A stretch of 64,000 bases of DNA from Lentinula raphanica (taxonomy: Eukaryota > Basidiomycota > Agaricomycetes > Agaricales > Omphalotaceae): positions 992,001 through 1,056,000 of the forward strand of contig JANVFP010000018.1 in NCBI GenBank assembly GCA_027919835.1, given 5' to 3'. A program made the position numbers and the translations under genes. Position 1 is the stretch's first letter, and each line of letters opens with the position of its first letter. This document shows positions 18,976-47,719 of the stretch, one piece after another. The notes under the pieces are model-generated. The model was not told where the DNA came from. It searched no databases and saw only the letters and a program-made list of their open reading frames with translations.

Positions 18976-19784
18976 CTATAAACAGTGGGAAGCTGTTTGC
19001 TCTGTAGGAAGCGTAACTTTGAGGTCTTCCATGTTGATCGAGCCCCCTTGATTATAGAAGCGCTCGTACAAGTGTCCCTCATAAGCAACCGTATACCTTC
19101 ATCAGGAAAAATATTCCCATCTCTAGAGTCCCTAGAGATACCCCCCAATTCCTAGGCTGCTCAGAGATTTTTGTGAGCTTTGAAAGATCAAAAAACATCC
19201 TAGAGATCCTGAAAGATCCTGAAAGCATCTGAAAGCACCAGAAAGCACAAGAAAGCACTAGAAAGCACCCAGAGAACTTTTAGAAGCCTCAAAGAACTCA
19301 GATACTCTAGGCTCTCTGAGACTACCTAGGAATTGGGGGGTATCTCTGGGGACTCTAGAGATGAGAATATTTTTCCTGATGTTAGATAAGCTTTTCCCTT
19401 CTCCTCCAACGTTCCGTGCATGATTCTCCATGCTTTTTTGTCGTCCTTCTCTGGAAGTTGGAGTGGCGCACCATCTTTCAAAGCTTTGAGGACGGAGTCC
19501 TTCATCGCACCCTCGGCTTTCTCAGTATCACCCCGATCTTTGGGAACACCATCGGGGTCATAGCCGATCTCTACCAATGTCACACCGAGAACATAGCCCT
19601 TGGGGTGATCAGGACCCTGTAAATCGAATATTAAGTCCTCCCCTCTTGTGGTTGAGCAACTTCTGTAATCACTACCAACCTTGGGATCGGACGTGTCTCT
19701 GGGCATCAGCGTCCTCAGGGGCACAGGTGCGGTGTATACGACGGCCACGAGCCAGACGATGAAAAAAACGACATTAAAACGCAT
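18976..19784 (-). pseudogene. Small secreted protein gene, copy A, interrupted by a MITE
   Basis: The start at 19784 gives MRFNVVFFIVWLVAVVYTAP, a clear signal peptide with cleavage near residue 18. The mature part has YDPDGVPKD and PEKDDKKAW, shared with copy B (51812-52326). The frame is broken after KAYL by the 282-bp MITE at 19100-19381. In its present form translation runs about 13 codons into the MITE and stops at 19326. Downstream of the MITE the frame continues to a TAG at 18976-18978, with FYNQGGSIN and KVTLPTE matching FNQGGWIN and IVTLPTK of copy B. Function unknown; possibly a secreted effector-like or wall protein. Confidence 0.8.
19100..19381 (+). mobile_element. MITE copy 1 (282 bp) inside secreted-protein gene A
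   Basis: Starts CATCAGGAAAAATATTC and ends GAATATTTTTCCTGATG, with terminal inverted repeats continuing for about 70 bp. It is flanked by a 2-bp duplication TT. The centre has short GAAAGCAC repeats. No coding capacity. Copy 2 is at 20413-20694 in the opposite orientation. Confidence 0.88.
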
Positions 19785-20090: not shown

Positions 20091-22067
20091 TAACGAGGAT
20101 ATGAAGGGTGCAATTTAATGCTTCGTTGGATAGATCTAATGACCTAGTGACTTTATCACTGAACACTGATCACCAATATACTTCTTATGTCGTTTGTCAA
20201 ATGTATTTAAGCGAGGTGTGGGGCATTGTCAGAGATTCCGCACGATCTTATACCTTAGAACGAACTGGTAGTCTTAAAAGATCTACTGGATCCGCAATAC
20301 AGGTCAACAGAGCGAAGTGACACGGAAGTACAGATCTTTTGATCTGGACTCGAAGGGGGTGAGTGATCCACTCAAAGGGTTTACAAGGAACGAGAGAACT
20401 CGTATAGATCAGCATCAGGAAAAATATTCTTGTCTCTAGAGTCCCCAGAGATACCCCCCAATTCCTAGGTAGTCTCAGAGAGCCTAGAGTATCTGAGTTC
20501 TTTGAGGCTTCTAAAAATTCTCTGGGTGCTTTCTGGTGCTTTCTGGTGCTTTCTGGTGCTTTCAGATGCTTTCAGGATCTTTCAGGATCTCTAGGATGTT
20601 TTTTGATCTTTCAAAGTTCACAAAAATCTCTGAGCAGCCTAGGAATTGGGAGGTATCTCTGGGGACTCTAGGGATGAGAATATTTTTCCTGATGAGACTT
20701 TATGACCACACAAATACTATCAGAACCAGGTTGAAGATCTACTGATCACCGATCACAGGAAACCTTCACAGCTCGTATGGATCACCGATCACCACACGTC
20801 TGCTTGAACAGAGCCACCGAAACTCTGAACGCTCACTTGGAACAACCGAGAACCAAGCCCTCTGTATCTCCACGATAGGAGTCTACCTTCGATTCAAATC
20901 TAGCTGAGACTTTATCAACTGACAAGATATCGGGCCTAACGAGATGAGAATTTCACAACCACTTTCGAAGACCGCCCGGCTTACAAAGCCTTTACTCCTC
21001 ACGTATGAGAGCAAAGGTTAGCTAGTCAGAGAAACTGGGCACAAAACCTCCCTATATTTTTGTAGGCTACGTCCTTAAGTACTTCTACGAATAGATCTGT
21101 AGCCAATTTACTATTTTATGGAATAGATCTATAGATTTGAGAGAACGGAGTCCGAGATCTGATACAAATAAGGAAAGATAGGACAAGAAACGATACAAAC
21201 ACCAGAGAAACAGAGAGTAAAAAGGATAAAAACAAGTAAAATGTCCATTTCTGGTGGTCCTTCGTCGAGATCTAGTTGCCTGACCTTCGAATCCGGACCT
21301 GGTCTGTGCGTCCATCCACATGCTGGTGGTTAAAGGGCACGGATAAGCTCCTGCACAGGTAACTCAAACGTTTCCTCATTTGATTCCGCTATGTGAATGG
21401 TTGTATGCCTCTCCAACTGAATGGGAGTACATATAAAGGGGGGAAACCTGTCCCAATAGGTTCGTTTGGCTTCTAGCTTTCCAACGATATGCATATATCG
21501 AATAGATCCAGAGGTTTAACAATGGTGAAGTCGAAAGATCTACCCTTGCAGCACTCCTGGTCAAAGCTGTACATCTCAGGCGTCTATTTCCCATTTAGGA
21601 AACGTCCACATGTAACTGGGATGCTACACTTTGGTTGTTTCTCCGTTTAGTCACATTCCTGCGACCTGATCCATCCCGAAACTCGATCTAAGTGAACAGA
21701 TCTGTTGAGTCTGGGCCTTGAATAATCCATCCCCACTGGTAATACGAATAGATCTATTGGTTCTAAGCTCGTCTCGGTGCAGTATCATACTCAGTTGGCC
21801 GTTAGGCGTTGAAAACTAAGTTGATAATCCCTTGATAGCTCATATCAGAGGTGGCTTTGTCTTGAAGGACTCCCCGACCAAGGGACTCGAGTGTGAACTC
21901 TTATTATTCGTCAGGATGTGTTTTCCTGTCTGGATCTGACGTCCTGGCATTAACATGATACAAGTTTGACTGTCAGCTCGGGCTCACTACAGTCCCTTTA
22001 GTACTCTACAAGGCTCTAATCGTTAAAATTAGGTCATTGCATGCCTGCACGCAAAATGGGCGTATTA
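20091..22067 (-). repeat. 3' LTR of the Ty3-type element, with a MITE inside
   Basis: 1977 bp including the 282-bp MITE and its 2-bp duplication. Without these it is 1693 bp against 1690 bp for the other LTR. It contains about 11 AGATCT palindromes. Confidence 0.9.
20413..20694 (-). mobile_element. MITE copy 2 (282 bp) inside the 3' LTR
   Basis: Reverse-complement copy of the element at 19100-19381, with the same CATCAGG...CCTGATG ends. It is flanked by AG duplicated (20411-20412 and 20695-20696). The other LTR (around 36117) shows the uninterrupted site GATCAGACTTT, which fixes the boundaries exactly. Confidence 0.92.
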
Positions 22068-22078
22068 TCTCCCCCAAA
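22068..22078 (-). promoter_or_regulatory. Polypurine tract next to the 3' LTR
   Basis: On the minus strand TTTGGGGGAGA directly precedes the LTR start TAATACGCCC. This is the expected plus-strand primer site for reverse transcription. Confidence 0.75.
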
Positions 22079-22542
22079 CTAAAGATCTGACCGTCCCCGG
22101 TCATCTGGTTGGGTAGACAGGCTCGTACCTCCCTTGGGAGTGTGGTACTGCAACTGATCCGAGCTTTTGGATTGATCTCCTCGATATCCCAATGGTATTC
22201 CCACTCATTAAGCTTATGGATCTGTTCGGTTGCCTCGGGATCAACTGATGATAATTAAACCCGCGGCTAACTCGGTAGAAGCGCCTAATTTCCGAGTGTG
22301 ATTATCAAGAGATCTAATCACAACATCCTGCAACTTCACAAAGTTCATTTCTTTGACCTTTGTAAGTATTACAATTCTTCCTACTATTCTTAGAATTTTC
22401 CCAGTGGCTTATTACGTCCTGGGAAGTTCTTAAGAACCGTGGATAAAAGGCTGCCGGACTTCGAAAAATTTCTCTAAGTCCGCTTTCTTTCTTCCTCCCA
22501 CTTCAACATCGTTCCCCAACTGATCTCTTTTCCATTATCGCC
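22079..22542. other. Non-coding region between the 3' LTR and antisense gene 1
   Basis: Probable promoter of antisense gene 1. It is pyrimidine-rich just before the ATG (CTTTCTTTCTTCCTCCC) and contains two AGATCT palindromes. No gene is seen. Confidence 0.5.
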
Positions 22543-25186
22543 ATGTCGTCTCGAAAAGCTGGATCCTCTTCGACTCATAAACAGTACGCCGTTCGAGAAC
22601 TTCGCAGCAAGGCTTCCACCATCGAGGACTTCAAATTCAACACGCAGCTTCGGGCTAGAGACAGTATCACTGCTAAGAAACAGGTTCTCTTTCTTCCAGC
22701 CTCAAAGCGCGAGTGCGATCTCCTTCGTCAGGCTTGGCCTGCCCACACGAATACTTTCGATTCCGCGTTCACTTTAAAGCTATACGCAGACCCCGAGCCC
22801 GACACTTTGCCAAGTTCCCCTTCCTCTGATCAGAAAACCAAGATCCCCGACACCTTCTACCCAGAACTTCTTGTTCAATATGTCAAGGAGTTTGAGAGGG
22901 GCGCCGTGTGTCGCGAGGAGGGGTTCCTGCTTTACCAGGCTCTCAACATCGTGCAGGACGCGCTTGCGGACGTTATGGATGAACCCAAGGCCAAAACGAA
23001 AGATGCTCTGCTGTCTATGCTCAAGAACTCCCAGGTAACGAACGCCTTGGTAGGTCTTTCGTTTCCTTCGAGTACCTAAGACTGACATGAGTTAGGGCTA
23101 CTACCGGCTCTTTTGGCACAAGACCCGTAGCTGCCCTCTCTTCGCTCTGCGGTTCATCTGTTTATTTTGTGATTTCTGCGCCAAGGTTCTGTCCAAAGCC
23201 GAGTACACGGCCAAGGTGTATAATGAAGAAGCTAGGCGAGGGTTCGGTGTCGACGCTACGCTTCGCACTAAGGTCCGGGTAAGCAGACCCTTCGTTCATG
23301 CCCGAATGCCGTTTCTGACACTTCCTGCAGGCCTTAAAAGGTCCTGCCCACAACGTTGCCTCGCTTGCCATCCCGCTTCCACTTGATCCTTCCACCTTCG
23401 AAGGTCAGTTGCTGATCACGATCGCACAAGCAGGTCCCGCCGCGCAGGTTCTTCGACATCCTGTTACGAACGCGATTCTACTGCCCGACCCTAGTGGCGT
23501 TGCAGATCTTCCTCCAGCCAGTCCTCTCTTGAACGCTTGGGAGGACGAGGACTTCAGTATGGAAGGTCCTGCCTCACCAGTCGACGAAGACGAAGGTCTA
23601 GCTTCTCCTATCCTGGATGTAGGGGACGATGACGATGGAGAGACAGAGGTGTCAGAGGACATTGCGGCCGAAGATGTGTTCAAGGCTCCAAAGGGGAAAG
23701 GCAAGGCCAAGGCCTCCATCGGTATGTTTTCAGCCCATCCATCCTCCTCCTGAGTCCCTACTAACCTACTGACCGCTCCAGACACTCCCATTCGCCGCAG
23801 CCCCCGAGTCAACATTCCCAAGGCTACTTCGTCGAAAGTGGGGCCTCCTGTCACCAGCAGGCCAGTTCCCAAGCCAATCAAACGTGAGCGGGAGGCCTCC
23901 TCGCCTATAGCGGATATGGTAGGCTCCCAGCATCTGTTTTGTCTTTCCTTCCGACTGATGACCCTTCTTTTCGTAGGAGATGAAGGAACCAGTGCACAAG
24001 AAGCCCAAGACTGCCACAGTTCCAGTCAAAGCTACCAGAGAGTCCTCGCCTCCTCAAGTTGCAGATAGGGCTAAACCAAAGACCCCTAAGGGTTCTAAAC
24101 CTGCTATTGAGCCGCACGAAGCGGCGGTCGAGCCTGAGGCTCCCTTAGAGCACAACGACGTTGATACGAGCGCGCACCACACCTTGTTCCTCACCAATCC
24201 CAACTTCACGGTCAAGACTGCATTCGCCGATCTCGTCGCGCAGGATCAGGGTATCAAACGGCGTCCAGAGATGCAGATTCTTCGCTCTTCTCCCTGAACC
24301 CTCGATGATGAACTCAAAGGACTCAGTGCTTTTCTGACTGCTCATGGCGTCTCGTTCTCATTAGACAACTTGGGCCGCTTCGGTCATCTGATTTCTCGAC
24401 GACTGGTTCATGATGATTCTGACATTGCTGTTGAGGATCCCGACCTGGCTCCTTCCCTCGACTGCGTTTCCTGCCAAGTGCGGGGTCTAACTTGCACCGC
24501 CGGTTCGCGTCTCGGGGGGCCCTGTCAGGGCTGCTCTCAATCCCATCGAACCTGTCCGAGCGCGCTTCATTTGGAGTTACAAGCAGATCTCTTACAGGAA
24601 CTTCCAAAATCAGTGCAGTCTCTTCCAGGCAGTAAGTGGATCTTTGGCTTTTGCCATTTCCTGGAGCTGACTTTGTGTTCACCCTGCCCTCCTAGGCTAT
24701 GCCTTGGCCCTTGATCGTTTTCAGACCGGACTGGATCGTTATTTCCGTGCTCAAGAGCTGGCACAGGAAATGTCCAACTTAGCCGCCTACAACCTCGCTC
24801 AATTGGTACATGATCTGAAAGCCTCGGGGCCTGATGCCAACGTAGTCCTCACCGCCTGGGCCAAGGAACATCCCGACGACAAGCTCGGCTACGATGATGT
24901 CACCTTGCTAGCGACGTTCTTCAACTGGAACTCGTCCTGTAACCTCTCTGCCTATCTCGAGACACCCGAGGAGATCGAGCGATTCCAACAGTTCTTGAAG
25001 GATCACAAACTCGACCTTCCCTCGGTTCCTTCGACCTCGGGTGAAGCCACATCTGATCCAGGCGAGTCTCCAGTTGAGGAGCCAAAGAAGACCTATTCGG
25101 CCATGCACGCTTCTAACTGGAACGTCGAGGCAGCAGCAAAGCCTGACGAGCCTGCTACGCCTATCACTGAGGAGCAGAAACCTTGA
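22543..25186 (+). CDS. Antisense gene 1 of the Ty3 element: Zn2Cys6-like cysteine cluster protein
   Basis: Six exons (22543-23034, 23096-23278, 23331-23721, 23782-23918, 23977-24631, 24696-25186), all with GT...AG introns and consistent phases. The N-terminal domain (MSSRKAGSSSTHKQYAVREL, then VLFLPASKRECDLLRQAWP) and RLFWHKTRSCPLFALRFIC are not recognised. A long acidic/basic disordered centre follows (DEDEGLASP, KGKGKAKAS, EPVHKKPKTA). At 24463-24555 lies CVSCQVRGLTC, nine residues, then CQGCSQSHRTC, that is C-x2-C-x6-C-x9-C-x2-C-x6-C, which fits the fungal Zn2Cys6 pattern. The C-terminal part is helical (RYFRAQELAQEMSNLAAYN). An in-frame TGA at 24295-24297 breaks this copy. The gene lies opposite to gag-pol, and its introns would survive in the genomic RNA. 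Role unknown; DNA binding is inferred. Confidence 0.7.
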
Positions 25187-26002
25187 ATCATCCTCGGTTT
25201 TCTGTCTCCTGCTTCGGACATGGTTTCTTTTGGGCGGATCCGTTCGACGGTGCGCGTTTCTAGGACTCCGACATTTTCTTTTTGTACAGATTTCCAATCG
25301 CAGACTCATCTACAGACCCTTCGTTTACTACATATGGACTAAATATCATCAACTCTTCACTCGTAGCCTATGTAGTATTTCTGTCGAGGTCTCTTAATAT
25401 CGTTTTGGTACATTTTCACAGACTCTTAGGTAGTACCTTAGTAGTCTGATCCAATGCATGGCCTTAGCGCCAAATTGATCTTGAATCCTCGTGTGAAATT
25501 CTTCATAAGTCCACTAAGTTAACGAACATGACTTGATCTGTCCTCAGTAGTGTAGAACTAAAGTAAGCTCTAATAAAGTCTTTGAAATACGATCCCGTTG
25601 ACTTTACTGAGCCTCTTTATAAGAAAAAGGGACAGATCTGGTGTATCCCTTGTTACAGGGTCCCTAGATCTGTGAGTATATGCGAAAACACGAATAGATC
25701 TATTCGTTCTTTCGTGCCTTTCGCTTAAAAAAAAATGTTGGTGGTCACTGCCCTAAGGTCTCTTAATCCTTTGGGCAACTAATGTGAGCTACGTCGGCCT
25801 CGGATCTAGTGCTATACATGTTACCCACATGCTTGTTTCAGTTAGATCACTGACTTCGTAAAATTTTAAATTTTGAAAATTTTCGAAACACAGTGTCCCC
25901 TCCCCCAAACTAAAAGCTCAGCAGTCCCTGCTGACTCAGTCAAGGAAAGTTTTTCGTATAAAACAGCACTGATCCGAGTAGATCCAACTCCCAAACAAAA
26001 AT
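25187..26002. other. Non-coding spacer between the two antisense genes
   Basis: AT-rich, with several AGATCT palindromes (about 25635, 25666, 25693). GAATAGATCTATTCGTTC occurs at about 25692. It probably contains the terminator of antisense gene 1 and the promoter of gene 2. CTCCCCCAAACTAAA (about 25904) matches blocks near 22069 and 28156, a sequence recurring at three borders inside the element. Confidence 0.5.
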
Positions 26003-27982
26003 ATGGCGCCCAACCACGAATTTTCCAACACTCCCCTTCGTTTGGAGTCCGAGCTTGAGGACTGGGCTGACGATGCAGCCCACTGGGTCAAGGTACTATG
26101 TCAAGATCGTACCCTAGGATTCAGTGCTGCTATCAATCAACAAGGATCCATCAAGCTTCAGACTTCGACGAGAAAAGCGATCATGGCTGATGTAAAATCC
26201 GCCTATGAACACATTGTATGTATTTCATGACTAGATCTGTTCATTATCAGACTTCTGACGACTTTTCCAGTCCCTTAAGGTGTCGAAGGAGGCTGCCAGT
26301 CTCAACACATCGTACATGCAACAGTACGAGGCCTTGAGTGAGGCCTTGATCGGCATCATGGCCTTCTCTGAGATCGCAGAGGAGGCCGGCAGACTCTACC
26401 CCAACGTTAAGAATGAGGGTGGACAAGACTCCCGGATGGAACTGTTCCTCGACGAGCTCGTCAAGATCCGTCGTTCCGCCACACGAGCCAAAATGCAGAA
26501 GGCCGAAGCCGCTGCAAAGGAAGTCAAAAACTCGACTCCAGGAGTAAGTATTGCTTCGAGTAACTTTGTCCCTTCGATAGATCTGATCAATTTTCAAAGA
26601 CCAAAGGCAAGGAATCGGCCAAGTCCAGAGAAAAGACCGTCGAACGTGCTTCAGTCGAACCCATTGACGCTGAACAGAAGTTCATGGAAGAAATCGTGAG
26701 TAGATCTGTTCGTCGAGTCGATCCGAAGTACTGATCCATCGAGTTAGGAAGCAGATCTCGCCGCCGCCGAAGCTGAAGACGAGGCTGCTGCACGTAAGGC
26801 CTGTCCCAAGGGAACTACTGCCTTCCTTCGTCGTCAACAGGCAAGTCCAGGCTGTGATGGCATTGCAGCCTACGCCATTCTTGCTTATCGAGCCGAACGT
26901 CGTGCTAAGTTGTATCGAAAGGGCACTCCCGTCAAAGTAGCTGACCAAGATAGCCCTGTACGTCGTTCCACTTGATAGATCTAACTGTTTCTGATGAAGA
27001 TCTTCAGATGGAGGATGTTGCAGGTGAAGAAGAGGCGTCTCCCAAGGCTAAGTCTAAGTCCAAGTCCAAAAGAAGTCTAAGGTCGTCGAGGAGACTCCTG
27101 AGCCAATGGCTGACCCGGATATCATCGTAAGTACCTTTAGATCTACTCAGAACGAATAGATCTGACGATTCTCTAGATGGAAGAGGAACCCAAACCCAAG
27201 GCTAAGGCCAAGGGGACGAATGCTGAGGAGGAGACTACGAAGGCTTCCAAGGGCAAGGGAAAACGAAAGCGACAGGACCAAGACGTGGGGGCAGCAGGAT
27301 CCGCCGAGACTTCAGTGAATCCTGAGCCTTACTCAACCACTGCTGGACCTGAGACTATCGTTCAGCCCCTGGCGACCGGAGAGGAACAGACCAAGAGGAC
27401 CAAGGTCTACCTAGATCTGGCCGATACTTGTAAGTACCTCGAGTCATTTCCAACAGATCTTCTCTTCTTTTCGCTCTATTATTTATCACAGAGCAGCAAG
27501 GATCACTAGATCTATTGCTTTAGCATGTTGTCTTGCGTTTGAACTGTCTCTAGGACGTGGTATCTGAGCTAATCATCTTCACAGGCGACCCTGGAGATTC
27601 GGAAAACTGGGACCTCGTCCGTCTCCTTCAAGATATCACTCATAGCCACGCTGCTGAGTACAGCAACTATACCGAGGCACAGTTCAATGCCTTGGTCAAC
27701 TTCCATCAGAATCAGCTTTTCGACTGTTCCATCAAAGCTAGGTATTACGCTCGACGTGGGTTGGCAAGTCAGGCCATTATCGACAACGCCATGAAGGCTT
27801 TCCGCATGAAAAAGCCCCTGAACGCCGACGACGACAGCAATCCTCGCGAGGAAGTGGTTGTCGTTCCTTCTTACACACCCTACACTCGTCCCCTTATGAT
27901 GCCACCCAGGGGTGATCCACAAGGTGATAGAGAACAGCTAGCACGCCTAGATCCTTCGCTTCCTCCACATTCCGCGCCTTAG
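26003..27982 (+). CDS. Antisense gene 2 of the Ty3 element: charged, mostly disordered protein
   Basis: At least seven exons with GT...AG introns on the plus strand. The start is MAPNHEFSNTPLRLESELED. A helical N-terminal half (EDWADDAAHWVKVLCQD, MQQYEALSEALIGIMAFSEI, ELVKIRRSATRAKMQKAEAA) is followed by Lys/Glu-rich low complexity (KAKSKSKSK, GKGKRKRQDQD) and a C-terminal domain with WDLVRLLQDITHSHAAEYSN and FNALVNFHQNQLFDCSIKAR. The end is at 27982. No family is recognised. One single-base loss is needed near 27072 to keep the frame. Most introns carry an AGATCT palindrome, which is striking. Like gene 1 it is antisense to gag-pol and probably transcribed from inside the element. Confidence 0.65.
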
Positions 27983-28190
27983 GTAGACGTCTGAAGTAGT
28001 TGAAACACCAGATCCATTCGTTCCCGTTGTCCTGGTACCTATTTTTATACCTGATATGCAGTCAAGTAACGTATTAGGTAGTTTTTGAGGTAATTCAGTC
28101 GATGACCAACTTCCTCGAGCATGTTGAGATAGAATTTTCGAAAGATCAATGACCGGACTCCCCCAAACTAAATAGATCTGTTGGTCTAAC

Positions 28191-31100
28191 TCAGTTTGAT
28201 GAGGAGATCCTTCGACTACGACGTGGGCCTGCCTCAGAATTGTCATCCTTAGGTGCTTCATCATTAGAACCGGACTCTGCAGCCTTCGGATCTGAAGGAT
28301 CTTTATCCTTTTCAGCTGAAGTATCGAATGTGACATCAGGATCCTCAGATATGTTGATCTTAGGGATTGCTCCGAATACCAAATCCTCAACATTATCAGG
28401 GGTATCGTCGTCATCATCGACCATAGCTTCCAGTTGTTCTGGACTCAGATCTATCAGGTCATGGATGTTCTGGGGCAGATCTATGGTTCGAAACGAGCAT
28501 GATGAGGCATTACTCTGAATGCACCGACTTTGTCTTTCAGTACAGTACCATCCATTTCAGCAATGATATAAGACCCTCCTCGTGTTCGTCTGATCACAAC
28601 CATAGGTCCACGGTAACGACTATACATTTTTCGATCCAAATTCTTCTCGATGGTGGTGTTCCTGATCTGTACCAAGGTCCCTGGTTTGAAATCCCAGTCC
28701 TTGATAGTATATCGGAACTTGTCTTCGAAGATCCTAAGATCTCGACGCTTATTAGCATCAATCCTGGATCTCATGTTCTCAATGAAGGAACGGTGTTTGG
28801 AAAGGGCCTGAGCACGATAACCCAGCAACTCTTCCCGAGAGAGGATTCGATTTGGTGGATTGACCAAATAGGTAGATTCGACGATATCAAAAGGGAGTAA
28901 CGGTTCTGCACCAGTTACAACAAAATAGGGAGAGCATCCGAGACCTCTCCTAGGAGTGACTCGATCTGCCCATAACATTGGCTTCAGGAAGTAGAACCAT
29001 TTGCTCAGATCTCCGGCACAAGTCTTTGCTAAGGCCTGCCTCAGATCATAATGAGCACGCTCAATCTTTCCATTAGCTTGAGAGTTATACGGGGAAATCT
29101 TAATTCCTCGGATCCCATACTTTTGTTCCAACCATTTCAGCATAAGCTTCATTTGGGGTGCATTATCCGAAACAACTTCCTCAGGACATCCCCATCGACA
29201 GATAATGTCATCAAAGAACCATTCAGCTATGATCTGGCATTTTCCACTCTTAAGGCTCTTGCCTCGGACCAGGATGAAAGTGAATCTCGACCATGCACTA
29301 TGTACTTACACCCATTACTGGATGGAGTCATGAACATGGTGTCAATATGTACCTTCTGAAACAGGGAAGGGGTGTAGGTAACCGTTGGAGGGATTCTAAT
29401 GAGAGCCCTCTGTCGATCCTGACAGGCTTGGCACGATTGAACATACCACTCCACGTCTTTGTCCAGATCTGGCCACCAAAACCTCTTTTCCAAGAAGTCC
29501 TTCGTTGCAAAGACACCTTTGTGACCAAGGGCATCATGTGCACTGTTCAGAAGAGCCATTCGTCGATCAGGATCCACGACTAAACGAGGCTGATCTGACG
29601 ATAACTTCCTATGGTACAATTGACCTTCGGCATCAATGGAGAAGGGGATTACTTTCCTATCCATCTCTAACCGTTGTTTCTTGTCCAATTTCCCGAAACA
29701 TTCTGCATCAGGGTTTTTCAGCCACTCCAAGATCTCTGGCAACTGCTTGTCCAAACGATTTCCTCCATCAGATCTGTGGGAATCCGGATATGATTGATCT
29801 GGTCCCCAGACTGCATTGTCAGGAATCGTGGTATATTGCAGATACTGAGAAACTGGTTGCATCCCATGCATAAGCAGATGGTCCTTTCGTAGTTTATGCT
29901 CAAGATCTTCTTCTCTGGCAAGTTCTAGATCTTCCTCGAAATCTGGGCAATAGATTCCTAGAAGATAACCATGCCTTGGATCTATATGATCTTTAAACGA
30001 ATCAAAGGGAAATGGATCGTCGGCATCATCTGCTTTCAGAAACCTGATGTTGTTGGAGTCATCCTCATCCAGATCATCTTCACTAGTCGACTTTCCGCGA
30101 GGAGTTGTCCAACCACCAGGTGGTCTTCGAGATAAGCCATCAGGTCCATGTGTCACACCTTTGACATGTACCAAATCGAAATGGAATTTACGGATTGCCT
30201 CAATCCAACGATTAATGGTTGCATTTGGGCCACTACTGGGGTTTTCAAGCATTCCCTGTATGTAGCTCGCATCAGTTTCCACTATCAGTTGTCGGCATCC
30301 ATAAAGAAGATAATGGGTGGACTCCAAAGCAAGTTTCAGACCATAAAGTTCACGTTTAGACTGTGAAAAACGGGCTTCCCGTTCCACGTAGGGAATAGAT
30401 CCAAAGTAATTGTAATAGATCTTTTCAGGGTCGTTAGGATCTACTTGATAAATGTAAAATCCTGTTCCCATCCAGGAGCTATCGACTGATAGATGTGTTT
30501 CCCAATCATAAACAATGACTCTAAGGGCTGGTGCATTTCGCACTCCTTCCTTTAGTAGTTCCATAGCAAGATCCTGCTCCTCAGACCACTCAAACGGTAC
30601 ATTTGCCGTCAATTTAGTCAAGGGGGCAGCTTTCTTGGAATAGTTGTGAATGAACATTCGAAGCTGGCCAACAGTCCCCAGAAAAGCTCTCACATGTGTT
30701 CGAGTTTCGCATTTAGGCCAAGTTAGGACCGTAGTAGCGATCTTATCATCTGGTTTCTGTCCTTCATAGGCACAACGATGTCCAACCACTGTGGTTTCCT
30801 CACAACAAACGAAGGCTTTAGGTCCTGAGAAGGTACCTCCAGCGTGCTTCATTCGTTGGATGATCCGATTCACGTTTTGAAGATGTTCCATACGAATCGA
30901 CGGATCTGTGGGTTTTCCGGAATGGTTTCATATCCACCACCTGGTAACTCATATCGACTCTCGGGTCCTCGCACAGGTACATCATCAATGTAAGGAATAG
31001 TATATTCAGGAATTTCGTCTCGTACAAGTAAGTTACATCGTCATGGAATATTGGTACCGAGTTGGTCCATCCCATAGGCAATTTGACGAGACGATGTGGT

Positions 31101-32292
31101 CCATAAGGAGTTTGGAAAGTGGTGAGATCCCTAGATCCAACGTCTATGTGTCTCTCATCGTAGCCCACAAAGATATCCAAGATCCCTCCACATGCTCTGC
31201 CTGCAAAGTGTCTAGCAATGTCCGCAGTAGCTGGGGAACCCCGGAGTGCCGTATAGTAACCTTATTCAAAGGCTCCAGACTGTGCACCAATCTTAGGCTC
31301 GTTCCATCCTTTTTCACCACACAGAACCATTTAGATCTGTAGCTTGCACTCGATGGTTCATAAACTCCTGCAAGGATCTTTCCTTGATTATCTTACAAAC
31401 CTTAGGAAAGATTCCTGGAGGCACGGGAATGTTTTTCTCGACCCAGGGTTCGTGAGGTATAACCGGAATCTTTACTGGAGGGAAGAAATCCTCTCTGAAA
31501 GTTCCACCTTCGGATTGATCCCAGGCAAACCCATTTCCTGAACCTTCATCAGATGATGAACGAGTTTTCGTTCCTCATTTGTTAAGAATCCTTCTGGATG
31601 GTTCTTGTCAATAATCTCCTTACGCTCTTGCGTGTATCGGACTCCCGGAGTGAATTCAGGTGGATGAGTCGGCAGATCTGGCAATCCTTCCAAAGGATCT
31701 CCAAAGATATGACGACGAACCCTAAATTCCTCAGGAAGTTCAGCCTTAACCGGGCGTACTTTCAACGCAACAGGCTTATATTTTCGAGAACCGAAGACAG
31801 ATACATTTGAATATGATGACATTGGGTCACTATATGCGCCTATATGCTGTTCAAATGTTCCATTCTTTTGTTCCCACGATTGAACTCGTTCCCGGGCACT
31901 CCTCAAGTCGTAGGACTGGGAATTATCCGGTTGATCTGGACTTACATGGTTCAGATCTGAAGTGTAATCACTTGGCCGGGACAACCCATGAACGTCTCTC
32001 GTCAGACTCTTAGCTTTAATAGACTGATAAAAGGACTGTTCAGTTGTTCCACGTCCGGATCAGTTCGAAATCCTTCCTTCCAAGGATTGATCACACGATT
32101 TTGTTGATGGTCCACACCTTTGTTTAGGTATAGATCTATGGTTTCAGCGACTTCAGGAAGTGAATCCCTAAACGAGGGTTGGCTATAATTAACATATAGT
32201 TCAGCCAATTCTTCGTCTCGGAACACTCCTTCTTTCACTTTGGTCGACTCAATGACTACTTCTTCACCTAAAGGATCCCAATACCCACTCAC
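28191..32292 (-). CDS. Ty3-type pol: reverse transcriptase, RNase H, integrase (frame-broken)
   Basis: Domains are in the order RT, RNase H, integrase. [22 protein letters not shown], the Agaricomycete Ty3 linker, then [60 protein letters not shown] and the catalytic IPYIDDVPV. RNase [13 protein letters not shown] and [13 protein letters not shown]. Integrase: the H-H-C-C finger ([17 protein letters not shown]), D in HIDTMFM, D in VVSDNAPQ and E in [10 protein letters not shown]. The C-terminal tail ends in [11 protein letters not shown]. Frame breaks at about 28483, 29226, 30893, 31030, 31236, 31366, 31484 and 32030 are all of one-base-loss type, while the amino acid motifs in between are well preserved. 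Confidence 0.85.
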
Positions 32293-32339
32293 AGCGATTT
32301 CAACCTCTCCCTGATCGCTACTCAGATCACAGAGGTTAT

Positions 32340-33828
32340 CTAAAAATTTGGTTCAGCAGCTTTCTCCTCTTCTTCGGGACTGGTCTCCTGATTTGGATCT
32401 GGAGTCTCTGTCCGAGTCTGAGCATACTTCTGCTTATCCAACTGCCGTTTCTGAGCTTTAGGACTTTGTCCTCTCGGACTAGTCCCTATGGTGTATTGCT
32501 TTCCAGTGTTCGGATCTGTTATGGTTAACTCTTGGTCACCAGATCCAAACGTATGGATGACACTTTCTGTCAGTACATCGAAAGGTCTACCCAACAGAAT
32601 TTCGAAGGGTGCCTTTTCCTGCACATGGCATTGTAGATACAGTGTTATGGGTCCAAATCGGAATGGTACGTTCCTGGACAGTCCTTTGGTACGGGCCAGA
32701 CCTCCATGCACATTCTGCATTTGGATGGTCACTTTCGGATCCCAACCTAGTCCTAATCCTAAGGCAACACACATATCGATAGCAACAATCTGAGATCCAG
32801 AGTCTAATACACTCTCGATGTCTAGATCATCTCGATTATTCACAACTGGCCACACAGATCTTAAGCCATTTCCCATAGTGGCTACTATAGTCATATCACG
32901 ACGTGAATCATTTTCATCAACATCATGAAGAAAAGCTACCACCGGATCCAACTGAACATAATCCCCTGCCTTCATGCCATCTCGATCCTCGAGTATTTTC
33001 TCAAAGATCAATCCTTCTGACAGACTGAGATCTTCCACGGCAATGAACTGTTGCATCTCCATCCCTGTTCTCGGGATTTCCTCGACACTAGGTTCAACAT
33101 CATGGGCCTCATTAACAAAGGACTTGATTCGTTCTGTGGACGCACTTGGCGGTTTTTCATCTTCCTCATCATGATCTGCCTGACTTTGCCTGACAATTGG
33201 AATGCCTCAGCAGCAGTCAATGTGATCATTTGACGAGAAATCCGATCAGCTAATTCTTCTTCAAGGCCTGGAATGAATAACTCATTCCGAAGCCGAAATT
33301 TGGGTCCCTTCGAAGATCCTTTAGATTCAGTGACCTTCTCCGGTTTGGATTTTGGTTGATTTCGAGGTATGGGTGACACTTCCCTGGGTGGGACATGATC
33401 AAAAGGTCGATGTGTTTCGTCAGATCTAGAGGGTGAGGGCTCCCTGAAACGCACTTTGCGAGTGGTCTCACTAGTTTCCTCAACTAATTCTACTTCAGAA
33501 TCAGAATCCTCTTTATCCGATTTCTCTTCGACACTAACAGATCTCGACTTCCCTAGTGAAGTATCCCCTGATGAATGATTGGATCTGTTCGATTTTCCGT
33601 TCAGATCTTTCGAATTGGATGGTTCAGGAGCAGATTTGGATTGATTGGCAACATTTTTAAAATTTGGGTGATTTCGATCTACGGGTATGTGCACTCCATC
33701 AAAACGTTTTGTCTTAGTAGGAGGCACAGTTTTCAATGAACGGGGCTTAGGTTCATCCTCATGAGTCGTGTCCTTCAGCTGGGATCTTGTTTTCCGTCCC
33801 TTGCTCGACTCAATCATCGGATCCTCTA
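32340..33828 (-). CDS. Ty3-type protease region
   Basis: An N-terminal disordered, charged part (EKSDKEDSDSEVELVEETSE) and a retropepsin domain with ESVLDSGSQIVAID (catalytic Asp in DSG) and ILLGRPFDVL. It cuts the Gag-Pol precursor. The upstream Gag frame ends at a TAG in the string GGGAAACTAG and this frame ends at a TAG in AAATTTTTAG. Both can be read as -1 slippery sites or as one-base losses. A further one-base loss lies near 33170. Confidence 0.75.
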
Positions 33829-35702
33829 GTTTCCCGACTCATTACTGTACACCGTTGCAACATTGTTGCTAGATCTCCCCTGGGAAGATTCAACTACGTT
33901 GGCAAGGTACAACCAAGTAGGATCCCCCAACTGATCTGCATAATCCTCTTCATCGGGGATTAGATCATTGTATAACGTCGCCAAAACAGGCCAGTTCTTG
34001 CTCTGAGCATATTTCACGATCTTTTGGTATCGAGTTTCCGGACCAAAGTTATTTGGTAACGGAGATCCATCTTTCAGCTTAAGACGTTTGGATCCTTGAG
34101 ACTCCGGCATCACCCAGCCTTTCCCAAGGAGTTCCATGAACAAAGGACAGTTACTCATCATATGATCTGGTCCTCGACACAAGAAACACGTTCGATCTGG
34201 CATTCCTTGGCCTGGAGTGGGATTGACATTAAGGATCCCTCGACCTGCCCACTGGTTCCGGGATTACTACTACCAGAAAAGCCAGGTCTGGGCTGGGGTC
34301 GCATTCCAGCATCCGATTTTCCTGCCCTAACATCATTGAGCAATTGCTGCAACGACGTCAGTTCATCCTGAAAACGCGTCTTAAGATTCCCCATTTCTTT
34401 GAGCATCAACGACGATTTGTCCACATTTTCCACAAAGGCACGTTCATGGTCCTCTGCCTGTTCCTGCTTAACACTAGATCTAGTGTCTGTAGCAAAGAAA
34501 CGGGTCAGATCTGGCGTTTCCTCTTTAGCAGCTGCTGGGGTAACCACCGGAATATAGATCCCTCCCCTAGAGTTGGTCTCTGCATTCAGGACAGCTCCAT
34601 CCGTTCCAGTAAAGGTCTGGTATAGTGATTCGAGAGGGGGCTGCCTAGCCACAGCCTCTGCAGCACTTTTCCATTCCGAGAACGTATATGGATCATCCGT
34701 ACGCCGTTTCGCAAGTTTCGAGTTGGGGACCTGATGCTGAACTCGTTTCGAGACAGCTTTTCTCAGGTTTCCATCGAATGCTGATAGAAAGACCGACACC
34801 AATTCATGGTTTCCAATCGCCGGAGGCGGTTTCAACAACTTATTGGCCTCGACTTCGAACAACATGCAATAGATCAACAGCTCAGATCCATCCTCGACTC
34901 TCAATGGTCGAAACCTCTGAACCAATTCCAGCATAGCTTTCTTGGAACCCAGGGGTTTGCCAAAGATAGACGGGAACCGCTCAATCATGGCTCGAAGGAA
35001 TTGATCTGCATCCTCCTTTCCTTCCTCCGCTCCAGGGAGATGCTCTAAGGCCTGCTTCGTCTGGAGGGTCATCCATCCAAAGATCCTTTGCATCTTCACC
35101 TTCTCAGAGGTCACACCCGTGGCTTGGAACGTCGTTAGACAGAACCTCATCCATTCAGGCATTTGGATCGGATCAGCTAGATCCAAGATCATAGCCGTTT
35201 TATGAGTGGCAGGGAACTTCGCATTGTTGTATTCCCCTTGCTCTTCAGGAGACAACGCAGGAGGTCCCAACAGTTTGAGGATATCCACTGGAGCCTCGTT
35301 TGCACCTTGTGCATTTTGGTCATTTTGTGTAGTACTCATCGTTATATTTGGTATTCTGTTCCCAAACACGATACGTTGCAAGTCAAAAGAAATAGAGTTT
35401 GGTAATGTAGGATTCAAACTAGTCAAATCGACTGGTTCAGCAGTAACTGCCTGACGTCTACTGCTTCCTTGCACTACACCAGATCTGTTCGTTCTTGGAA
35501 CTTCAGAAGCAGATCTAGCAGCAGTCCCGTTATCTGGATTGCTCTTTGCTCGTCCGAGGTTCTTCGGATCGTAGACAGGAACCGTAGGCTTCTTTGTAAC
35601 ACGTTTTCTTTTATCCGGGGCTTGCACCTCTGGATCAAAGTAATCTAAAGAACCTGCGTTCTTCGACGTCCGAGACTCCCTTGGAGCTATTTTTAAGATC
35701 AA
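33826..35702 (-). CDS. Ty3-type Gag with CCHC zinc knuckle
   Basis: The first frame covers 35702-34158 (514 residues): a basic N-terminus, then the capsid-like part QMPEWMRFCLTTFQATG, FGWMTLQTKQALEHL, ELVQRFRPLRVEDGSEL. A coiled segment (MLKEMGNLKTRFQDELTSL) follows. The zinc knuckle CFLCRGPDHMMSNC lies in the next frame (34203-33826), so one base appears missing near 34215. The first ATG used (35702) is about 95 bases from the LTR, consistent with a short leader. Role: RNA packaging and particle assembly. Confidence 0.82.
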
Positions 35703-35777
35703 ACAAAGTTCGACCTAAGGCAATGGTTTGAGAAATCGATAGATCTCTCGAGTTCGTTCCAAAATATAGATTCCACC

Positions 35778-35794
35778 CCTCGCGGTGGGCTCCA
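35778..35794 (-). promoter_or_regulatory. Candidate tRNA primer-binding site
   Basis: On the minus strand, two bases after the LTR end (CCTCGTTA), lies TGGAGCCCACCGCGAGG. It begins with the TGG needed to pair with the CCA end of a tRNA. I cannot name the tRNA. Confidence 0.65.
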
Positions 35795-35796
35795 GA

Positions 35797-37486
35797 TAAC
35801 GAGGATATGAAGGGTGCAATTTAATGCTTCGTTGGATAGATCTAATGACCTAGTGACTTTATCACTGAACACTGATCACCAATATACTTCTTATGTCGTT
35901 TGTCAAATGTATTTAAGCGAGGTGTGGGGCGTTGTCAGAGATTCCGCACGATCTTATACCTTAGAACGAACTGGTAGTCTTAAAAGATCTACTGGATCCG
36001 CAATACAGGTCAACAGAGCGAAGTGACACGGAAGTACAGATCTTTTGATCTGGACTCGAAGGGGGTGAGTGATCCACTCAAAGGGTTTACAAGGAACGAG
36101 AGAACTCGTATAGATCAGACTTTATGACCACACAAATACTATCAGAACCAGGTTGAAGATCTACTGATCACCGATCACAGGAAACCTTCACAGCTCGTAT
36201 GGATCACCGATCACCACACGTCTGCTTGAACAGAGCCACCGAAACTCTGAACGCTCACTTGGAACAACCGAGAACCAAGCCCTCTGTATCTCCACGATAG
36301 GAGTCTACCTTCGATTCAAATCTAGCTGAGACTTTATCAACTGACAAGATATCGGGCCTAACGAGATGAGAATTTCACAACCACTTTCGAAGACCGCCCG
36401 GCTTACAAAGCCTTTACTCCTCACGTATGAGAGCAAAGGTTAGCTAGTCAGAGAAACTGGGCACAAAACCTCCTATATTTTTGTAGGCTACGTCCTTAAG
36501 TACTTCTACGAATAGATCTGTAGCCAATTTACTATTTTATGGAATAGATCTATAGATTTGAGAGAACGGAGTCCGAGATCTGATACAAATAAGGAAAGAT
36601 AGGACGAGAAACGATACAAACACCAGAGAAACAGAGAGTAAAAAGGATAAAAACAAGTAAAATGTCCATTTCTGGTGGTCCTTCGTCGAGATCTAGTTGC
36701 CTGACCTTCGAATCCGGACCTGGTCTGTGCGTCCATCCACATGCTGGTGGTTAAAGGGCACGGATAAGCTCCTGCACAGGTAACTCAAACGTTTCCTCAT
36801 TTGATTCCGCTATGTGAACGGTTGTATGCCTCTCCAACTGAATGGGAGTACATATAAAGGGGGGAAACCTGTCCCAATAGGTTCGTTTGGATTCTAGCTT
36901 TCCAACGATATGCATATATCGAATAGATCCAGAGGTTTAACAATGGTGAAGTCGAAAGATCTACCCTTGCACACTCCTGGTCAAAGCTGTACATCTCAGG
37001 CGTCTATTTCCCATTTAGGAAACGTCCACATGTAACTGGGATGATACACTTTGGTTGTTTCTCCGTTTAGTCACATTCCTGCGACCTGATCCATCCCGAA
37101 ACTCGATCTAAGTGAACAGATCTGTTGAGTCTGGGCCTTGAATAATCCATCCCCACTGGTAATACGAATAGATCTATTGGTTCTAAGCTCGTCTCGGTGC
37201 AGTATCATACTCAGTTGGCCGTTAGGCGTTGAAAACTAAGTTGATAATCCCTTGATAGCTCATATCAGAGGTGGCTTTGTCTTGAAGGACTCCCCGACCA
37301 AGGGACTCGAGTGTGAACTCTTATTATTCGTCAGGATGTGTTTTCCTGTCTGGATCTGACGTCCTGGCATTAACATGATACAAGTTTGACTGTCAGCTCG
37401 GGCTCACTACAGTCCTTTAGTACTCTACAAGGCTCTAATCGTTAAAATTAGGCCATTGCATGCCTGCACGCAAAATGGGCGTATTA
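35797..37486 (-). repeat. 5' LTR of the Ty3-type element
   Basis: 1690 bp, a direct repeat of 20091-22067. Compared with the other LTR (MITE excluded) it differs by about seven substitutions and three one-base gaps (in the CTCCCTATA, TGCAGCACT and GTCCCTTTA strings). It contains about 11 AGATCT palindromes. Confidence 0.9.
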
Positions 37487-40438: not shown

Positions 40439-41542
40439 TGAAGAAAAAACAGGCAGATCAAGGTTAGATCTATGTAGATAAGAGTCAGTACTATGTAGAG
40501 GCTTATCAGACATGATCAGAGCGCACTGAGACACCAAAAACCCAAGATCTAACAAAGGAATCAACTCCTAGAGTGTCTGATCTCCTTAGATCTGTCTGGA
40601 TGTGCTTTGGTATCTGTTCAGTGTCTTGATGGTGAAAAATGCGAAATTTCATACCAGATTCCTGTATCTGAGACACCTCTGGAAGGCCTGTAGTCTGTAC
40701 AGATGTAGGAATGTGCTGGACAGTGAAATCAGAGCTCAGAAAGAGCTAGGGAACATGCAGGCAGCCTCACCCAGGTCAGAGATGGTGGGGGAAGGAAAGG
40801 AAGAATGGGAGATCAAAAATTGATGTTTCAACTCGCTTTTACAGGCCTCTGCTCAGACCTCTGGCACCTGTAACAGCCACATCAATTTAAAACAGCCCCA
40901 TGATCAATTGCCTGATGCATGTGAAGATGGGATCATGTACAGCTATCAGCTGATGATCCAGGCGCCCTATAAGCGCTGGAAATGTCCGAAATATGTCCAG
41001 GAATCCATGTGATGAGTCTAGGCATGGAGCTAAGTGATATAGAGGCTCTGGGAATGAAATAACACACAAGTGTTTTGAGTGTGCATTTTAAAATGAGGAT
41101 TGCAGGAGAACCACTAAACCAAATGCCTTCAAAATTATTTGCATCTTAAAGAGGACATCAAACTGTATATTTTCATCTAAGACACCTATAGGTTTGGTCC
41201 AGGAATGCTTTGTGTAGAATAGAAAATATTTCAAAAGCTTTATTAAAGCATTCTGAAAAAATATGAATAACTCAACACAGAGTGAGTATTATCATAGGGT
41301 TATAGTGGACAACTTGTAGAGACAATAGAGCTCTGTATGCGTACACAGTATAGTGGCAAAAGCTCTTGAGAGGTAGCCAGCAATTAAGTGTATTCATGTA
41401 CACATTAGGTATGATGAAGGTGAAGACCTTCATGTACATACCTGTTGTGATGAATAGTGCACTATAATTACTGGGAGATGATCTGTTGTTTGCAGAGGCC
41501 TGCAGAAAGGCTCCCTACCCTTGGAATCCGCCTTCATGTCGA
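40439..41542 (-). repeat. Ngaro-2 split direct repeat A2
   Basis: 1104 bp, apparently identical to 46616-47719. Contains no long frame with motifs, and carries AGATCT four times in its first 160 bases. Confidence 0.88.
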
Positions 41543-46640: not shown

Positions 46641-47719
46641 TTAGATCTATGTAGATAAGAGTCAGTACTATGTAGAGGCTTATCAGACATGATCAGAGCG
46701 CACTGAGACACCAAAAACCCAAGATCTAACAAAGGAATCAACTCCTAGAGTGTCTGATCTCCTTAGATCTGTCTGGATGTGCTTTGGTATCTGTTCAGTG
46801 TCTTGATGGTGAAAAATGCGAAATTTCATACCAGATTCCTGTATCTGAGACACCTCTGGAAGGCCTGTAGTCTGTACAGATGTAGGAATGTGCTGGACAG
46901 TGAAATCAGAGCTCAGAAAGAGCTAGGGAACATGCAGGCAGCCTCACCCAGGTCAGAGATGGTGGGGGAAGGAAAGGAAGAATGGGAGATCAAAAATTGA
47001 TGTTTCAACTCGCTTTTACAGGCCTCTGCTCAGACCTCTGGCACCTGTAACAGCCACATCAATTTAAAACAGCCCCATGATCAATTGCCTGATGCATGTG
47101 AAGATGGGATCATGTACAGCTATCAGCTGATGATCCAGGCGCCCTATAAGCGCTGGAAATGTCCGAAATATGTCCAGGAATCCATGTGATGAGTCTAGGC
47201 ATGGAGCTAAGTGATATAGAGGCTCTGGGAATGAAATAACACACAAGTGTTTTGAGTGTGCATTTTAAAATGAGGATTGCAGGAGAACCACTAAACCAAA
47301 TGCCTTCAAAATTATTTGCATCTTAAAGAGGACATCAAACTGTATATTTTCATCTAAGACACCTATAGGTTTGGTCCAGGAATGCTTTGTGTAGAATAGA
47401 AAATATTTCAAAAGCTTTATTAAAGCATTCTGAAAAAATATGAATAACTCAACACAGAGTGAGTATTATCATAGGGTTATAGTGGACAACTTGTAGAGAC
47501 AATAGAGCTCTGTATGCGTACACAGTATAGTGGCAAAAGCTCTTGAGAGGTAGCCAGCAATTAAGTGTATTCATGTACACATTAGGTATGATGAAGGTGA
47601 AGACCTTCATGTACATACCTGTTGTGATGAATAGTGCACTATAATTACTGGGAGATGATCTGTTGTTTGCAGAGGCCTGCAGAAAGGCTCCCTACCCTTG
47701 GAATCCGCCTTCATGTCGA
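46616..47719 (-). repeat. Ngaro-2 split direct repeat A1 (5' end)
   Basis: 1104 bp, apparently identical to 40439-41542. It ends TTCATGTCGA directly before the transposase sequence resumes. Confidence 0.88.

Follow-up and report, generated by a model that had tools for sequence, protein, structure and literature searches.

As far as we know, transposable elements that recognise their own sequence to counteract silencing have been described mainly among the VANDALs of plants, which are DNA transposons. In the consulted parts of the published accounts, the VANC anti-silencing proteins of Arabidopsis VANDALs go together with a short motif that is over-represented inside the element (PMC5735166, PMC10398659), and the motif of VANC21, YAGTATTAY, is described as non-palindromic, located in non-coding DNA and arranged in tandem repeats (PMC5735166). 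Here we analyse a Ty3/gypsy long terminal repeat (LTR) retrotransposon of the mushroom Lentinula raphanica, in which the palindrome AGATCT is over-represented. It lies at 20091..37486 of a 64,000-nucleotide stretch of contig JANVFP010000018.1 (the window), has its gag-pol on the minus strand, and is identified as Ty3/gypsy by its two LTRs and its pol domain matches. Between its integrase and its 3' LTR lie two genes with predicted introns that run antisense to gag-pol. We call the family of this element A; a sister family, B, carries a different motif in the same genome.

The likeness to the VANC system appears to hold in outline, as an analogy. As in the consulted parts of the VANDAL accounts, a short motif is over-represented in an element-specific way (here AGATCT), related families have different motifs (here A and B), the motifs occur in introns, intergenic and terminal regions, and the targets turn over quickly. 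In contrast to those accounts, the sites described here are palindromic, helically phased and also present in coding DNA (20 distinct sites in the gag-pol open reading frames, ORFs), they stand singly or in small phased groups with no tandem arrays, and their carrier is a Ty3 retrotransposon of a mushroom and not a plant element. Several binding sites inside a transposable element are also found in En/Spm, with its self-encoded TnpA that is linked to demethylation, and in gypsy, with su(Hw); those sites cluster in terminal or untranslated regions, whereas here they are spread over the element, coding DNA included. Antisense ORFs between pol and the 3' LTR are described for the plant LTR retrotransposons Grande, RIRE2 and Retand (PMC7264820). 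The position and orientation are the same here, and in both cases the products have no clear database relatives and an obscure function, as far as the consulted part of that account goes. The present element differs in having two antisense genes, with predicted introns and one of them hypervariable, and a dispersed motif. Neither a dispersed motif nor a hypervariable gene appears in the same part of the plant account, and in the portion of the open-access literature consulted we found no description of a dispersed motif or a hypervariable cassette in an LTR retrotransposon.

AGATCT in family A and the motif of family B

The element holds 66 AGATCT sites (3.8 per kb), exactly the number that had been counted by hand in the initial annotation. 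To its left, in 1-20090, the sites are few, as had been reported, with five and not six of them; the right flank, 37487-64000, has 18 in 26.5 kb (0.68 per kb), part of which belong to a repeated trio. The genome searched comprises 49.06 Mb in 75 contigs and contains AGATCT 18,399 times (0.375 per kb), and the reversed word TCTAGA 12,041 times. By this genome-wide k-mer count, which had been proposed as a check, the element is enriched about tenfold. With one LTR removed (20091-35790), 55 sites remain, 13 times the expectation from base composition, and the next commonest palindrome is GGATCC with 16. Dinucleotide-preserving shuffles of this region give 9.1 ± 3.1 sites, the highest of 300 shuffles reaching 24. 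The enrichment therefore stands, at about 6-fold by this strictest control and not at the 15-fold first estimated. In eight partly overlapping gag-pol ORF stretches 21 sites were counted (20 distinct ones), against 4.5 ± 1.9 in synonymous-codon shuffles, with 11 as the highest of 400. After these shuffles, base composition and codon use are very unlikely causes.

The sites were said to be spread over the whole element, and this is true of the LTRs, introns, spacers and coding DNA, while antisense gene 1 is nearly free of them. The 3' LTR (20091..22067) and the 5' LTR (35797..37486, ~1.69 kb), both on the minus strand, contain 11 sites each, with 12 in 35715-37486. The gag-pol region (28481..35714, minus strand) contains 22 (3.0 per kb), and antisense gene 2 (26003..27981, plus strand), our favoured candidate for the motif binder, contains 11. 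As had been noted for nearly every intron of this gene, all six predicted introns hold one or two sites: there is one in each of introns 1 (26216..26270), 2 (26544..26599) and 3 (26696..26747), and there are two in each of introns 4 (26958..27007, 21 bp apart), 5 (27127..27176, 19 bp apart) and 6 (27430..27553, 53 bp apart). With splice sites placed by eye, the predicted introns, 390 bp together, account for 9 sites and the exons, at 1,589 bp, for 2 (Fisher P = 1.5e-5). A longer palindrome around many of the sites had also been reported. The flanks of all 55 sites show a weak AAT/ATT preference only, and the exact 14-mer named there, GAATAGATCTATTC, is found once in the window and 10 times in the genome (reversed control 0).

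Close sites are regularly spaced. The 16 pairs at 60 bp or less are separated by 19, 21, 24, 30 (four times), 31, 32 (twice), 40, 42, 51, 52 and 53 (twice) bp, i.e. near two, three, four and five helical turns. The observed 10.5-bp phasing score was matched by none of 5,000 jittered sets, and for the 17 neighbouring pairs up to 64 bp the Rayleigh test gives P ~7e-5. Overlapping windows excepted, no two pairs have more than ~21 bp in common around the motif. Two phased trios, one in the 3' LTR (21093..21160) and one between genes 1 and 2 (25634..25701), have the same spacings of 32 and 30 bp, and the last site of the second trio sits within the full palindrome GAATAGATCTATTC (25692-25705). Taken together, the phasing suggests a protein on one face of duplex DNA.

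A search with the integrase-region DNA gave at least 41 matches in the genome (40 of 69 candidates scored). Among these are at least 23 family A copies at 98-100% identity, the window's own included, with one further short A fragment adjoining one of the 23, and at least 17 copies of family B, with 78-79% DNA identity to the A integrase. A reverse transcriptase (RT) motif pattern search found 64 sites, which by reading were typed as 22 of A type, 41 of B type and one of a family C. The enrichment is shared by the other copies, as the initial annotation had suggested examining: all 23 fetched A loci have 1.9-5.0 AGATCT per kb. The seven fetched B loci all have 1.05-1.57 per kb around the integrase, and the B copy on contig C31 has ~2 per kb over 8.1 kb.

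Family B has a motif of its own. In 14.7 kb from two B copies (L036, L037), GATC pairs exactly 9 bp apart occur 31 times against 1.7 expected (0.5 ± 0.7 in shuffles), and every other GATC-GATC distance below 60 occurs at most 6 times; in A, distance 9 occurs only 4 times. Genome-wide, the dyad consensus TGATCTNNNAGATCA is found 347 times, compared with a single occurrence of its reversed control. The word CGGAAA/TTTCCG is found 46 times in the same B sequence against 10.4 ± 3.2 in shuffles, with 9 in A, and it is strand-biased, 37 copies reading in element sense and 9 in antisense. In places CGGAAA lies 15.5-17.5 or 25.5-26.5 bp from the dyad centre, and other distances occur too.

In aligned pieces of the two families, A also has AGATCT at 12 of the 17 AGATCT sites of B, compared with an 18% rate of sharing over all 6-mers. 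Of the 27 CGGAAA/TTTCCG sites of B, A shares none, and 14 of 16 alignable B dyads have GATC in A, a raw count given without chance level. We infer that the common ancestor of A and B had AGATCT or GATC sites and that B shifted later, although the direction is not proven. Family C is too distant to align at the sites, and no sites were found in common with it. By eye, the first and last predicted introns of gene 2 correspond in A and B, each with the motif of its own family. The B counterpart of intron 1 carries CGGAAA, a 9-bp GATC dyad and TTTCCG, and that of intron 6 carries a dyad and CGGAAA/TTTCCG. The pol protein blocks of the two families are 63-85% identical.

As controls, one copy each of the Ty3 families C, D and E was used. 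Their LTRs measure 725 bp (99.7% identity; L039/L040), 431 bp (100%; L041/L046) and 368 bp (99.5%; L042/L045), respectively, and the distance from the integrase match to the 3' LTR is below 0.3 kb in C, ~1 kb in D and ~0.1 kb in E. In these single copies nothing was found that credibly matches the antisense genes, nor any excess of a palindrome, a dyad or AGATCT like those of A and B. The fetched DNA, flanks included, contains 7 AGATCT in 20 kb (C), 7 in 18 kb (D) and 3 in 18 kb (E), and the top inverted-repeat words reach at most 11 occurrences. Purine-rich words (AGAAGA etc.) are found in C, less in D and E. The copies D34 and E1 were completed with upstream stretches. The D12 stretch (L044), which covers only the integrase side and beyond, is a weak motif control, and X20 (L043) was dropped, as the element is disrupted and long inverted repeats follow its integrase.

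The two antisense genes

Antisense gene 1 (22543..25186, plus strand) is a motif desert. In the window it has 2 AGATCT in 2.6 kb (P = 0.005), and its five predicted introns have none. In all four A copies compared, gene 1 has 1-2 sites in ~2.7 kb and a flank of 0.9-1.4 kb has 5, while in all six B copies gene 1 has no dyad and a flank of 0.8-1.3 kb has 3-7. The gene limits in this comparison were set by hand, and the alleles of two of the ten copies, B17 and B7, are almost identical.

Over the interval of the desert the copies differ from one another; we call this block the hypervariable cassette (22508..25600, spanning gene 1). The window copy, A18, is ~97% identical to the copies A13 and A1 up to ~22507-22496, ahead of the start codon at 22543; both diverge from it through gene 1, where A18 and A13 have almost no DNA similarity. 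Near 25650 the five A copies compared are back at 97-99% identity, and in the 150-bp steps from there on they stay at 95-100%. The pair A18 and A5 is closer, with 76% identity over 3.6 kb. In matched stretches the gene 1 proteins are 48-73% identical within A (four copies) and 50-69% within B, B17 and B7 being 96% identical. The backbone around the integrase is 98-99% identical in A and 96-98% in B, and just outside the cassette 93-98%. With the exception of B17-B7, every pair has a synonymous divergence in gene 1 that is above 1 or saturated; the dN/dS values that could be computed are 0.11-0.29, and 0.33 for B17-B7. In one pair of copies the identity jumps from 34-57% to 93-96% inside the gene, so the alleles are mosaics. 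Old, constrained alleles swapped between young backbones would fit these data better than recent hypermutation. Such a hypervariable cassette suggests an arms race or a frequency-dependent conflict within one genome.

Protein searches, in each of which the ~8,000 best word-sharing candidates were scored, returned at least 47, at least 2 and at least 5 relatives, all from L. raphanica. The four A alleles of gene 1 reach 29-40% identity with their best matches in the set of at least 47 proteins obtained with a B query. The cysteine cluster CX2CX6CX9CX2CX6C is present in A and, by reading, intact in 21 of 26 aligned B-side proteins; one of the others has a cysteine replaced and four are without the cluster stretch. 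Zn2Cys6 transcription factors have the pattern CX2CX6CX5-12CX2CX6-8C, with which the gene 1 cluster agrees. At E 0.1, neither the window gene 1 ORF nor any of the 26 relatives matches the Pfam zinc-cluster model.

The initial annotation had likened the element to the self-targeting VANC systems, with the antisense genes as candidates for the factor and the zinc-cluster protein as the one to examine. The pattern of the motif is as expected from this likeness, with enrichment at 23 of 23 A loci, absence from the C, D and E copies and another motif in B. The zinc-cluster gene as first choice was not supported, as gene 1 is the motif desert, varies between copies that have the same motif and has no Pfam zinc-cluster match.

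Gene 2 behaves differently. In its first 1.2 kb, the part compared, identity among the five A copies is 95-100% at each 150-bp step, whereas between A and B the matched protein blocks are only ~31-54% identical. Since gene 2 is thus constant within A and diverged between the families, like the motif, the comparison favours it over gene 1 as the candidate binder. The reader could still be a host protein instead, or a part of gene 1 that stays constant.

Candidate readers of the motif

We propose, with belief and doubt about equally weighted, that AGATCT is the site of a dedicated DNA-binding protein, probably the product of gene 2, which would coat the element and is predicted to block its silencing. 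As the sites are palindromic and those of B have a 9-bp spacing, the protein may be a dimer or an oligomer, bound to AGATCT over LTRs, introns and coding DNA, and the binding would be cooperative along one helix face. The coated element would stay open to transcription and escape silencing, an outcome suggested by the VANC precedent. At the split of A and B, the single AGATCT palindrome would have become a GATC pair 9 bp apart together with CGGAAA, the protein changing along with its target. Gene 1 would stand apart as a module whose fast diversification is driven by conflict, perhaps encoding a partner or a counter-defence protein, and the coat need not, or must not, cover it. The wider picture, which we hold tentatively and with somewhat more doubt than belief, is that each of the two sister families marks itself with its own address for a protein, in one family a palindrome phased to the helix and in the other a fixed 9-bp dyad, over LTRs, introns and coding DNA. 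A self-encoded protein would read the address and co-evolve with it, and the elements would carry in addition a motif-poor hypervariable gene, with old alleles shuffled between nearly identical elements.

A host DNA-binding protein may read the sites instead, the elements having gathered them so as to use that protein as an activator, an insulator or a tether. We consider this somewhat unlikely. It would agree with the GATC-cored sites of both families in one nucleus, with antisense proteins that have no recognised DNA-binding domain, and with the phasing, which suits any DNA-binding protein. However, the sisters, at 78% integrase DNA identity, differ in having a palindrome or a 9-bp dyad with CGGAAA, and the copies of three other Ty3 families in the same host use no such sites, which is unexpected if one host factor rewards them.

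That the zinc-cluster protein of gene 1 is the binder seems unlikely. The gene is carried by the same element, the cluster is found in A and in the 21 B-side proteins mentioned above, and the CGGAAA of B resembles the CGG half-sites of Zn2Cys6 factors. Against this, the protein differs by 27-52% in matched stretches of four A copies, and B copies with two cluster-loop types share the same kind of dyad in their flanks. The negative Pfam result also counts against it.

It is improbable that the motif works on RNA or particle cDNA, in packaging or nuclear export, and not on chromatin. By inspection the B dyad could fold into a 6-bp hairpin, and the strand bias of CGGAAA in B would suit a role in RNA; AGATCT alone, however, leaves no hairpin loop, and the sites are densest in introns of gene 2, which is encoded on the other strand from the genomic RNA. 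The 10.5-bp phasing also indicates duplex DNA, with which double-stranded cDNA would still agree. That base composition, codon use, simple duplication or mutational drift made the excess is hardly credible, for although other GATC words are raised too (GATC 199 vs 61, many of them overlapping AGATCT), the dinucleotide and synonymous-codon shuffles, the introns, the phasing and the sharp 9-bp spacing in B speak against it, and the excess would call for a mutational process producing AGATCT in the one family and the dyad in the other.

Several points weigh against a coat formed by the gene 2 protein. In Pfam and PDB sequence searches gene 2 has no recognised DNA-binding domain; both antisense proteins have only weak, sub-threshold Pfam matches and no PDB sequence match, and their AlphaFold models are poor (pLDDT ~42). 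The constancy of gene 2 within a family has been measured for A alone, the sites could be bound by a host protein, and an anti-silencing coat does not firmly explain the desert in gene 1. Motif-bearing families number just two, and just 12 of 31 A sites in the aligned pieces correspond to AGATCT in B. The controls are single copies of distant families (C has ~50% identity in the integrase-region protein), and, as both genes are absent from them, they do not help to decide between gene 1 and gene 2.

The phasing has weaknesses of its own. The evidence consists of 17 pairs in one element, and the test was designed after the distances had been seen, the period itself being fixed by DNA. Only three control words were used. 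Two of these, TGCTTT and GCTTTC, also score high (0.68 vs 0.73 for AGATCT), from 6 pairs compared with 19 for AGATCT, and we think that their scores come from short repeats in an insert in the LTR; the third, GATCTG, scores 0.53 and overlaps AGATCT. In B, neighbouring same-strand CGGAAA show no phasing (P 0.2-0.3), all same-strand CGGAAA pairs show a weak trend at most (P 0.02-0.08), and the dyads yield just six close distances.

If the wider picture of two self-addressing sister families is true, it would to our knowledge be the first account of an accessory system in an LTR retrotransposon that is both self-addressing and diversifying. A fungal retrotransposon version would show that the strategy arose more than once. 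With their different codes, the sister families could be used to study how a DNA-binding protein evolves in step with dozens of its targets, and the helical phasing yields a direct structural prediction.

Further features of the element and its surroundings

The two LTRs of the window element are 99.3-99.7% identical to each other, the insert excluded. RT_RNaseH, RT_RNaseH_2 and Integrase_H2C2 pass the Pfam cut-offs, a protease-like match and rve_3 are below them, and the gag is not recognised by Pfam. The element boundary tested shows no exact target-site duplication of 4-7 bases. Gene 1 has an in-frame TGA at 24295-24297 and gene 2 an apparent frame break at ~27067, so that this copy is probably not fully functional; annotated relatives with longer uninterrupted frames exist.

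The insert in the 3' LTR (20413-20690) is a repeat of ~280 bp with 57-bp inverted ends, which is also found inverted at 19099-19381, 1 kb outside the LTR. It resembles a miniature inverted-repeat transposable element (MITE) and contains short GCTTTC-type repeats. A stretch 94% similar to it is nested in a B copy (L038).

B copies contain nested insertions with long inverted repeats, one of them of 3.1 kb (L035:4758-7859, L038), in the spacer or at the start of the gene 2 region. Short (CCCCTAA)n stretches, similar to telomere repeats, are found inside the B copy on C31 (L036:3016-3099). In the right flank of the window, an AGATCT trio with identical flanks occurs twice, at 40466-40593 and 46643-46770; these are 6,177 bp apart and are probably the LTRs of another element.

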